Shown here: piece by piece, positions 20,828 through 22,594 of the stretch
How positions within the stretch are numbered: the stretch's first letter is position 1
Layout of the letters: each line of letters starts with the position of its first letter
Virus record (IMG/VR): IMGVR_UViG_3300017730_000102
Span: 1-22,594 of that record
Source: a virus
DNA length: 22,594 nt
Reading direction: 5' to 3' (one strand)
The notes under the pieces: model-generated
Seen by the model: the letters and a program-made list of their open reading frames with translations, nothing else
What the model was told of the DNA's origin: nothing
The model's database searches: none
Translations under genes and position numbers: made by a program

Positions 20828-21206
20828 CCTCTGTACCAGTCTCCCAAACTATCTTCAATGAACCATCACTAATCTCAACGCCTGTTCTATTCTTAGCTTC
20901 ACCAAACCTGTCTGGCAATACCTTCTGCACCTTCCATCTCACATGATGCCCATAATCCCTCAATAAATTAGGGTCATAGTTCTTTCGCCCATGCAACGCA
21001 TCACCATACATATCCTCTAGCTCCTCAAGTGCTTTCTCAGCAGCCTGACGTTGTGCAGTCTTAACACTGGTGTCTAGTTCTGTATCTTTGCTCATATAGC
21101 GATATAACGTAGCACGACTAACCTTTGCATCTTGACAAGCCTTTACCAAGCTGTGCCCGTCTGTAATGGATGATATGATGTGCTCTTGTTTTGCTTTGCT
21201 TATCAT
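20817..21206 (-). CDS. terS: Terminase small subunit (129 aa)
   Basis: 129 aa. A helix-turn-helix occupies residues 19-38 (SLVKACQDAKVSRATLYRYM), followed by a helical region with EKALEELEDMYGDA and DYGHHVRWKVQKVLPDRFG near residues 85-103, then a short beta C-terminus (GSLKIVWETG). The arrangement resembles Sf6-type and Bbp24-type small terminases: DNA-binding N-terminus, oligomerisation core and C-terminal tail that contacts the large subunit. It recognises the packaging site and is first in the operon; its 3' end overlaps terL. Only a weak ribosome binding site (TAGGTAG, about 12 bases away) is seen, so the start is fair but not certain. Confidence 0.88.
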   Translation of the reverse strand: MISKAKQEHIISSITDGHSLVKACQDAKVSRATLYRYMSKDTELDTSVKTAQRQAAEKALEELEDMYGDALHGRKNYDPNLLRDYGHHVRWKVQKVLPDRFGEAKNRTGVEISDGSLKIVWETGTEDAS

Positions 21207-21241
21207 GTGTGTGTAGAACTACCTATTAACATATATAAATG

Positions 21242-21286
21242 CGTGCTGGTCGTGCTGGGTGGTATACCTTATTATTTACCCCCCCC
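21242..21286. repeat. CGTGCTGG direct repeat and C8 tract upstream of terS
   Basis: CGTGCTGG occurs at 21242-21249 and again at 21251-21258 (9-base period). A GGTATACC palindrome follows at 21261-21268, then eight C at 21279-21286. This GC-richer patch stands out in an AT-rich gap. Its closeness to terS makes a packaging recognition site a reasonable guess, but nothing in the sequence proves it. Confidence 0.55.
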
Positions 21287-21390
21287 ATGCCTTACCTTTT
21301 TGCGTTGTATATACTTTTTATTATTGCTTGGTTCATGTTTTTTAATTTGCCGTGCAAGATTGTCTTAACTCAATGTGAATTGAAACGTAA

Positions 21391-21418
21391 ATACTATCCC
21401 TCTTTTATATGCAATCAA
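21391..21418 (-). promoter_or_regulatory. Weak candidate promoter for the structural operon
   Basis: On the minus strand TTGATT (21418-21413) is followed by 16 bases and TAGTAT (21396-21391). Each hexamer matches consensus at four of six bases. The same TTGATT hexamer is used in the better candidate before the fibre gene. It would give a leader of about 180 bases before terS. Other AT-rich alternatives exist, and the real promoter may be unlike sigma70 sites if the phage has its own polymerase. Confidence 0.25.
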
Positions 21419-21433
21419 TAAACTATATTGCTA

Positions 21434-21461
21434 TTACAATCAATAATATTTTTACTATAAT
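21434..21461 (+). promoter_or_regulatory. Candidate promoter for the rightward early-type genes
   Basis: A perfect -10 hexamer TATAAT (21456-21461) lies 16 bases after TTACAA (21434-21439), a poor -35. A second possibility is TTGCTT (21516-21521) followed 17 bases later by CTATAT, which would overlap the palindrome at 21524-21544. In AT-rich DNA such hexamers arise by chance, so confidence is modest. Confidence 0.3.
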
Positions 21462-21523
21462 AAATAACTACTGCTGAAATTAATTTGCTAAGTCATTGTT
21501 TTTATTTGTTTCTTTTTGCTTGT

Positions 21524-21544
21524 ATATAGAAATTATTTCTATAT
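21524..21544. promoter_or_regulatory. 21-bp perfect palindrome, operator-like
   Basis: Arms ATATAGAAAT (21524-21533) and ATTTCTATAT (21535-21544) are exact reverse complements around a single central T. It lies 36 bases before the first rightward ATG and within the spacer or -10 of one possible promoter. Dimeric repressors bind sites of this form, so an operator is the simplest reading; a transcript hairpin is less likely because the loop would be too small. Confidence 0.5.
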
Positions 21545-21579
21545 CATTATATATATTAATAACTAGCAAAGGAAGTAAA

Positions 21580-21753
21580 ATGAAATATCAGACATTCTTA
21601 TTAATAGCATTGTTTCAATTTATACTAATATTACCAATTAGTTTCTACTTAATGACTATTGGCTATGTTGGTCTATATTTTACATTGCTAATGATTAGCA
21701 GTTTAATCGCTGTAATAGCTTTATATTATCCATTAATTAACATTAACGACTAG
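21580..21753 (+). CDS. Small membrane protein with two predicted helices (57 aa)
   Basis: The frame is open for 28 more codons upstream, but I start at the ATG at 21580, which has AAAGGAAG about 5 bases upstream and follows the CTAGCAA leader word. The 57-aa product is almost wholly hydrophobic: a first helix at about 5-26 (TFLLIALFQFILILPISFYL), a short turn (TIGYVG) and a second helix at about 32-50, ending in a polar tail ININD. It should sit in the host inner membrane. As the first gene of the divergent cluster it may be an early host-interaction or exclusion protein; a holin is an alternative given two helices, but no endolysin is nearby. Not a recognised family. Confidence 0.7.
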   Translation: MKYQTFLLIALFQFILILPISFYLMTIGYVGLYFTLLMISSLIAVIALYYPLININD

Positions 21754-21765
21754 AAAGGCAAAGAC

Positions 21766-22119
21766 ATGACAAATTATATTGACAATGACAATTATAAACA
21801 CTCTCACAAATACGAAGAAATAAAAGAAACTTTTGATGACTTCATTAATGAAAATTCAAACTACTTGGAGGAGATAGGCGAAGAATTACATCATGAATGT
21901 TTTAATGCTGATTATTACATAATAGGGAGATATAAAGCTACTCAATGGTTAGGAGACCAGGTATTCAACATCATTGATATTATAGCAACATATGAAAAGG
22001 ATAATTTTGGAGAAGTTACAACAGACTTCAAAGAGCCTGAAAGGGTTGTGAATATGTACGTTTATATTCTTGGAGAATACATAGTCCAAGACTATCAAGA
22101 CCAATTAGAAACAGTTTAA
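21766..22119 (+). CDS. Highly acidic early-type protein of unknown function (117 aa)
   Basis: 117 aa with about 26 Asp/Glu against about 8 Lys/Arg (hand count; net near -18). ATG at 21766 has AAAGG 8 bases upstream. Sequence landmarks are EEIKETFDDFINENSNYLEE, ELHHECFNADYYIIGRYKAT, QWLGDQVFNIIDIIATYE and PERVVNMYVYILGEYIV; the protein is aromatic-rich and probably helical and compact. I believe homologues occur in marine phage sequences but know no function. Its acidity and length are like T7 Ocr (117 aa), a DNA mimic that blocks restriction enzymes, though there is no sequence similarity that I can see. The gene position next to the control region fits an early function. Confidence 0.8.
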   Translation: MTNYIDNDNYKHSHKYEEIKETFDDFINENSNYLEEIGEELHHECFNADYYIIGRYKATQWLGDQVFNIIDIIATYEKDNFGEVTTDFKEPERVVNMYVYILGEYIVQDYQDQLETV

Positions 22120-22132
22120 TCTTGTTACTCTT

Positions 22133-22184
22133 GTTAGTCTGGCTTGTCCAGACTAGCGAGAGCTACAAGCTCACAACCTAGCAA
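22133..22184 (+). other. Structured intercistronic element, copy 1
   Basis: Hairpin 1: GTTAGTCTGG (22133-22142), loop CTTGT, CCAGACTAGC (22148-22157); ten pairs with one wobble. Hairpin 2: GAGCT (22160-22164), loop ACA, AGCTC (22168-22172). Then CTAGCAA (22178-22184), a ribosome binding site (AAAGG) and the ATG at 22202. There is no U tract, so it is not a typical terminator. The same series recurs before the last gene of the window. Confidence 0.65.
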
Positions 22185-22201
22185 CAAAGAAAGGCTATAA
22201 C

Positions 22202-22345
22202 ATGACTAAATTTGATTTTTACGCACTGTGTGGCAAGTATCTAATTGACGTTGATATTGCTTTACAAAGTGAAGAACTAAAAGAGCTTTTAAGAAACAAA
22301 GCCAACACAGAAACAATAGAAAACTTTTTAAAAGAGCAATTCTAA
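22202..22345 (+). CDS. Small soluble protein (47 aa)
   Basis: A 47-aa frame: MTKFDFYALCGKYLIDVDIA, then a charged helix LQSEELKELLRNKANTETIE and the end NFLKEQF. ATG at 22202, with GAAAGG about 8 bases before it and the CTAGCAA leader word further upstream. The FDFYALCGKYLID-type start followed by a Leu/Glu/Lys helix is seen, as far as I recall, in small conserved phage proteins of unknown function. It has no membrane segment. Its stop is directly followed by the ATG of the next gene. Confidence 0.7.
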   Translation: MTKFDFYALCGKYLIDVDIALQSEELKELLRNKANTETIENFLKEQF

Positions 22346-22447
22346 ATGAAAAACATATTTAAATTAATAGCTATTAGCTTAATAGAATTATTATTTTTAT
22401 TTACTATATTTGGCTATGCAATATTCATACTAATAATATTTAGCTAA
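22346..22447 (+). CDS. Tiny single-helix membrane protein (33 aa)
   Basis: 33 aa: a basic start MKNIFK, then one continuous hydrophobic helix (IAISLIELLFLFTIFGYAIF and onwards) with a single Glu at residue 14. The ATG comes immediately after the TAA of the 47-aa gene, and AAGAG lies about 9 bases upstream, so the two are probably coupled. The positive N-terminus predicts insertion with N inside. The small size makes the call less certain, but frame, ribosome binding site and tight junction support it. Possible roles: membrane regulator or lysis or exclusion peptide; unknown. Confidence 0.6.
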   Translation: MKNIFKLIAISLIELLFLFTIFGYAIFILIIFS

Positions 22448-22455
22448 CAAAGAAT

Positions 22456-22536
22456 TGTATAGGCTGGTTTTGTACCAGCTTATACATTAACAGAGCTACA
22501 CGGCTCTTAAAACGGCAACAATGCCATAACTAGCAA
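22456..22536 (+). other. Structured intercistronic element, copy 2
   Basis: Hairpin 1: TGTATAGGCTGGT (22456-22468), loop TTTGT, ACCAGCTTATACA (22474-22486); 13 pairs with one G-U. Hairpin 2: AGAGC (22492-22496), loop TACACG, GCTCT (22503-22507). A third small hairpin GGCA/TGCC (22514-22525, loop ACAA). Then CTAGCAA (22530-22536), ribosome binding site AAAGAGAAAG and ATG at 22554. Loop sequence, second-hairpin word GAGCTACA and leader word match copy 1, although stem sequences differ. Confidence 0.65.
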
Positions 22537-22553
22537 AAGAGAAAGCATAAAAC

Positions 22554-22594
22554 ATGACAAAAGAACAACAACAAAAAATAATCGATCTTGTTAA
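22554..22594 (+). CDS. Start of another early-type gene, cut by the right edge
   Basis: The first 13 codons are visible: MTKEQQQKIIDLV. AGAGAAAG stands about 10 bases before the ATG and the CTAGCAA leader word before that, as for the other rightward genes. The residues form a Lys/Gln/Glu helix. Nothing more can be said about function. Confidence 0.6.
   Translation, partial: MTKEQQQKIIDLV

Follow-up and report, generated by a model that had tools for sequence, protein, structure and literature searches.

Structured RNA linkers with two mutually exclusive folds between early genes of uncultured phages close to the HTVC010P group

Uncultured phages close to the HTVC010P group carry at least three types of RNA linker (A, B, and C) in their early operon. 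HTVC010P-type pelagiphages are the nearest cultured group and have been ranked among the most abundant marine phage groups. The RNA of type A was able to pair into a duplex of about 22 bp beginning at the upstream stop codon, and it was the pairing, not the sequence, that was under selection. The 3' part of the same RNA can fold as a small hairpin (H2) just 5' of the unpaired CUAGCAA leader and the ribosome binding site (RBS), and both folds were kept in two clades. The linker may be an intergenic site of mRNA processing and stability like the early RNase III sites of phage T7, with H2 capping the downstream message; from the analysis below, we put the probability of this reading at roughly 40%.

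The stretch of DNA analyzed, here called the window, is a 22.6-kb contig (22,594 nucleotides) of an uncultured virus. Its terminase was about 51% identical to the terminase of HTVC034P and HTVC010P, both phages of Candidatus Pelagibacter, and its virion genes were podovirus-like. The virion genes run leftward. Small genes form an operon in the rightward direction, which begins near 21580 and is truncated by the contig end. A CTAGCAA leader, an RBS, and an ATG precede the first early gene (57 aa) at 21563-21582 on the + strand, where the hairpin series was absent. The exchangeable early genes include ORF 21766-22119, which lies 5' of linker A and matched PHROG 10208 (E 3e-18), a family of unknown function. 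The host search found neither a large-terminase (TerL) relative nor the linker among genome contigs, and a blastn comparison of the region with cultured phages yielded spurious matches only.

Linker A (22120-22184, in gap 1, 22120-22201) spans the distance from the stop codon of one gene to the next ATG and starts at the base after the TAA stop (22117-22119) of ORF 21766-22119. All features of both gaps lie on the + strand. The foot, P0, has the 5' arm CTTGT (22121-22125), which pairs with the 3' arm ACAAG (22165-22169) and covaries across relatives. Above the foot is an internal loop of TA (22126-22127) opposite CT (22163-22164), followed by the stem H1, which consists of the 15-nt 5' arm CTCTTGTTAGTCTGG (22128-22142), the loop CTTGT (22143-22147), whose letters vary among relatives, and the 3' arm CCAGACTAGCGAGAG (22148-22162). 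The final GAG of this arm is common to the alternative fold H2, GAGC-TACAA-GCTC (22160-22172), which is incompatible with P0 and with the lowest pairs of H1. The leader CTAGCAA (at 22178), the RBS AAAGAAAGG, and the ATG (at 22202) of a 47-aa ORF (22202-22345) follow at 22178-22204. Read as a whole, gap 1 carried the 15-bp stem with its loop and the foot, then GAGCTACAAGCTC, and then CTAGCAA, RBS, and ATG. The RNA folding z-score of gap 1 was -4.2, and 0 of 200 shuffles folded as well.

Linker B was found in gap 2 (22448-22553). Its H1 is a 13-bp hairpin, TGTATAGGCTGGT-TTTGT-ACCAGCTTATACA (22456-22486), which is followed by H2, AGAGC..GCTCT (22492-22507), with a second allele AAGCCTG..CAGGCTT in relatives, and by H3, GGCA-ACAA-TGCC (22514-22525), for which GCCA..TGGC was also present in relatives. 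The leader CTAGCAA (at 22530), an RBS, and the ATG (at 22554) of an ORF cut by the contig end occupy 22530-22556. The folding z-score of gap 2 was -6.2, and again none of the 200 shuffles matched the native fold. Among 18 relatives, all 12 aligned pairs of the type B H1 were kept at 100%, three of them with double changes, and 98.6% of the cells of H3 were paired, one pair alternating between GC (10) and CG (8). Both alleles of the type B H2 were able to pair. A further pairing across type B, TAGC/GCTA, was rejected because it was not kept in relatives. In four relatives (L154, L156, L135, and L032), H2 and H3 of type B occurred without H1 in the early region, right behind the apparent end of a coding region, and the parts of type B are therefore separable. 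In the GC-richer relatives L183, L184, and L189, hairpin linkers of other kinds shared the ACTAGCAA leader; at 2966-3050 of L184 (reverse strand, numbered from TerL), GGCTCTTAAA and the type B GCCA..TGGC hairpin were found behind an unrelated 11-bp stem.

Both hairpin series described in the earlier note were confirmed where it had placed them, and the observation proved larger than claimed. The 5-bp foot of gap 1 and the third hairpin of gap 2 had been missed. The short hairpin followed by CTAGCAA, RBS, and ATG was seen in both gaps, with the GGCA..TGCC hairpin in between in gap 2. Stems of 10 and 13 pairs had been claimed; the length of 13 stood, and that of 10 had to be corrected to 15 (plus the 5 of the foot). 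The two gaps had been taken for copies of one element, but they represent two related classes, A and B. The supposedly fixed YTTGT loop was replaced in relatives by loops such as CATTGT, TTAACG, and ATCTTT. Because loops and stem letters differ among relatives, YTTGT is not part of the element, and it is, like the CTGG/CCAG closure, an accident of these two copies. Neither GAGCTACA alone (2 found against 0.82 expected by chance) nor CTAGCAA alone was rare in the window; the evidence rests on structure and on relatives. A motif search for TTGT..CCAG..GAGCTACA in viral contigs was discarded, as it matched at least 120 stretches, mostly by chance. The view that the gaps are not ordinary terminators held, with 0 intrinsic terminator-like sites (stem and U tract) in 21100-22594.

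The relatives were examined in a sample of 80 loci around TerL relatives, out of 405 TerL relatives. When the region upstream of the terminase was scanned for hairpins, most loci proved to have this series between their small genes, often several times per genome, with differing stem letters and loops. Type C was recognized as a hairpin around GTTGCA..TGCAAC preceding the leader. For 32 close relatives, the early region was represented by at least 2.6 kb; of these, 28 carried type A, 20 type B, and 21 type C, and 30 had at least one type; type A was absent from six cultured isolates. Up to three type A linkers and one type B were present in a single operon (L179). The earlier note would have been refuted by a lack of further copies or by stems failing to covary; a covariance model recovered further copies between small genes of relatives, and the stems did covary. 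This model found 47 type A copies above 48 bits in relatives, all oriented like the early genes, with scores of 48-82 bits on the gene strand versus 40 bits or less on the opposite strand; a copy outside the model seed (L146, 1981-2049) scored 70.6 bits. The suggestion that this RNA family had not been described before agreed with Rfam 15, in which the best matches were far below the gathering scores, and with a literature search, in which the element was not reported. The pelagiphage transcriptome paper deals with other groups (PMC12753301).

The geometry of type A was constant in the aligned copies, with a P0 of 5 bp, a 2x2 internal loop, an H1 of 15 bp, and a loop of 5-8 nt, and stem length and P0 start were fixed across copies. 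However, the letters were not: 20 distinct 5' stem arms occurred among 44 copies, and 284 of 300 pairs were kept over those arms. In 31 type A sequences, 94.9% of cells were paired and 13 of 20 pairs changed on both sides. Double-change cells numbered 123, compared with 35.7 ± 5.4 after shuffling, a control that leaves relatedness in, and with 24 or fewer in slid registers, which retain relatedness and stay low; these tests ignore phylogeny. So many distinct arms with nearly all pairs kept, together with the low slid registers, leave little doubt about the covariation, which bears out the earlier proposal of a selected RNA structure with compensatory stem changes.

The strand under selection was indicated by mismatched pairs. 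In 25 stems, G-T oppositions numbered 40 and A-C oppositions 4, and this excess identifies the selected molecule as the gene-strand RNA. A DNA-level element, either an inverted repeat recognized by a DNA-binding protein or a cassette recombination site, would suit the many-to-many gene combinations at the junctions described below. However, a ratio of 40:4 requires selection on RNA, so that this reading is largely refuted and very improbable; the DNA-binding inverted repeat in particular was rejected by the strand bias. Stem letters were unrelated even within one genome (L179), and hence no DNA word is shared. Shuffling is more likely a consequence of the linker than its purpose.

We also analyzed the two folds of type A. 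Because H2 (GAGC..GCTC) contains the 3' arm of P0, ACAAG, and uses the GAG that closes H1, P0 and H2 are incompatible. P0 covaried with the loop of H2 (CTTGT/ACAAG, CTTAT/ATAAG, and CTTTAA/TTAAAAG), and their complementarity gave 116 paired positions versus 100 ± 3.3 after shuffling, a value reached in 0 of 5000 shuffles. A diverged clade followed the same logic with other letters: TTTACTT is the partner of AAGTAAA in one fold and serves as the 5' arm of GATTTAC..GTAAATC in the other. Energy models without constraint gave P0 in 44 of 44 copies and H2 in 0 of 44. When the first 12 nt were blocked, as by a terminating ribosome, H2 formed in 44 of 44, a result largely built into the shared GAG overlap; in these models the flip shows that H2 is possible, not that it is used.

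The main rival to the processing site arises from these folds. In a translation-sensing switch, a ribosome at the upstream stop would cover the 5' arm of P0 and so favor H2, an untranslated RNA would form the P0-H1 duplex, and the fold state would set the fate of the downstream gene through stability or translation start. The 5' arm of P0 lies 0-5 nt past the stop in type A and overlaps the stop in the second clade, both folds are conserved, and the 12-nt block flips every copy in silico. However, the flip is nearly inevitable given the shared GAG, type B has no P0-like alternative, and the RBS stays exposed in either fold, being located 3' of them in a leader that is mostly unpaired, so that the switch has no visible output. 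We consider it doubtful, though conceivable. Equally doubtful is a standardized RNA switch in which the terminating ribosome would select either a cuttable long duplex or a small protective hairpin, and each exchangeable cassette would have its own coupling device. If true, the switch reading would mean a new class of phage regulatory RNA.

Next to the folds, the position of the linkers was regular. In 42 of 42 type A junctions, the linker filled the whole gap of 78-89 nt, starting -1 to +4 nt from the stop codon (0 in the window) and ending 11-20 nt before the ATG. These junctions combined 14 upstream and 20 downstream protein families in 34 combinations, many families occurring in several. 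The order of the operon was packed genes, linker A, packed genes, linker B, packed genes, linker C, and then a conserved 59-aa protein. The linker belongs to the sense strand of a polycistronic early mRNA; co-transcription we infer from strand and spacing. As every linker is self-contained, modules of genes would be exchangeable at the linkers, and exchange itself was partly shown by the junctions.

Of the functions listed in the earlier note (RNA processing, protein binding, and translational control), we favor processing. In the favored reading, the long duplex would be cut by a host double-strand endoribonuclease, probably RNase III, which would separate the gene modules of the early transcript. 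Once the upstream arm was removed, H2 could fold at the new 5' end and shield the downstream message, and the remaining stem might slow 3' exonucleases on the upstream message. The division of the operon into tightly packed gene blocks by linkers A, B, and C speaks for this reading, as do the covariation, the strand bias, the regular placement, and the two folds with their counterpart in the second clade. Against it, the type B stem of 13 bp and the type C stem of about 10 are short for a double-strand nuclease, and cultured HTVC010P-type relatives do without the element. An RNase III cut at the internal loop would cost H2 its GAG arm, which means that cutting further up the stem would be required.

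The host polymerase synthesizes the T7 early transcript, in which five sites are cut (PMC4858673), and RNase III sites share a stem-loop structure without a strong consensus (PMC8708148). Like T7 sites such as R1.1, the linkers are intergenic hairpins with an internal loop, several per operon, in an early polycistronic transcript, lying directly 5' of the RBS of the next gene and keeping structure over sequence. Type A also has the stem of about two turns with an internal loop (B and C are shorter), and the linkers are candidate members of this class. In contrast to the T7 sites, the linkers have a fixed geometry of 15 bp, 2x2 loop, and 5 bp starting at the stop codon, a second, exclusive hairpin, the CUAGCAA leader, and three classes.

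An exonuclease barrier and 5' stabilizer acting without cutting would share part of this mechanism, with H1 stopping 3'-to-5' decay, H2 shielding the downstream RBS region, and differing expression of modules within one operon as the outcome. The stable stem right behind the stop codon fits, and element similarity was 0.70 by upstream family versus 0.65 by downstream family and a background of 0.64. However, this link with the upstream family is weak, with relatedness as a confounder, and the reading leaves unexplained both the fixed geometry of 22 bp and the mutual exclusion of P0 and H2, as a plain GC-rich hairpin would suffice; we regard the barrier as unlikely. The constant stem length and the invariant CUC/GAGC and CUAGCA letters beside the variable type A stem could instead mark a site recognized by an RNA-binding protein of phage or host, either a translational repressor or an early-gene coordinator. 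Loop letters are free between copies of one genome, unlike those of known operator hairpins, and no partner protein was in view, which makes such a site decidedly unlikely.

Least probable of the readings is processive antitermination through a nut-like or put-like site. It draws on the likeness in size between type A, with two hairpins in about 65 nt of early-operon RNA, and HK022 put, and on GCTCTTAAAA of type B, which resembles a boxA of the lambda nut sites. However, several different linkers lie deep inside each operon, and the boxA-like word is lost in the common type B allele CAGGCTTAAAA, so that the CAGGCTT allele weakens the boxA/nut reading. The put element is a two-hairpin RNA of about 70 nt, single in each early operon, with base-specific contacts to the polymerase (PMC9378689); in contrast, the linkers occur several times between genes and their stem letters are free, and they differ from put in number and position.

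By position, the nearest described repeats are the SAS/ESAS of Cluster K mycobacteriophages, a start-site repeat for a subset of genes, about half of which have an inverted repeat just upstream, its function unknown (PMC3203893). SAS is the 13-bp GGGATAGGAGCCC, and ESAS are sequence-conserved 17-bp words with few departures that track gene family (PMC3203893). The linkers have the leader CTAGCAA instead of GGGATAGGAGCCC, their stems change freely with compensation, and gene families and linker variants recombine; by sequence, they do not qualify as SAS/ESAS.

With its strong covariation, two exclusive folds, and fixed stop-to-start position, the linker makes phage mRNA processing beyond the T7 model accessible to experiment. 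It suggests a route by which hypervariable small-gene regions could be reshuffled without breaking expression, and it can serve as a marker for finding such gene cassettes in metagenomes.

Other features of the early region were also noted. The 59-aa protein after linker C (MQLTKEQFKTIRTELQYTQKEFATLLGITIRMISYYESGQ) was found upstream of TerL in L124, L128, L150, L156, and L144, beyond the window end, and looks like an XRE/Cro-type helix-turn-helix regulator. A long, perfect palindrome, TATCTATGCACTGC-TATA-GCAGTGCATAGATA, ends the early operon in most relatives, with a T run about 40 nt later; its candidate roles are those of terminator, origin, and operator. It was found on the reverse strand of L125, about 2570 nt upstream of TerL, and also in L124, L127, L128, L150, L154, and L156, reaching 20 bp in L158. 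A 13-bp hairpin, GACTTCTTCGTTT-GTTACA-GAACGGAGAGGTC, was conserved about 7.3-8.4 kb upstream of TerL in L144, L150, L154, L156, L158, and L179, possibly inside a coding region.
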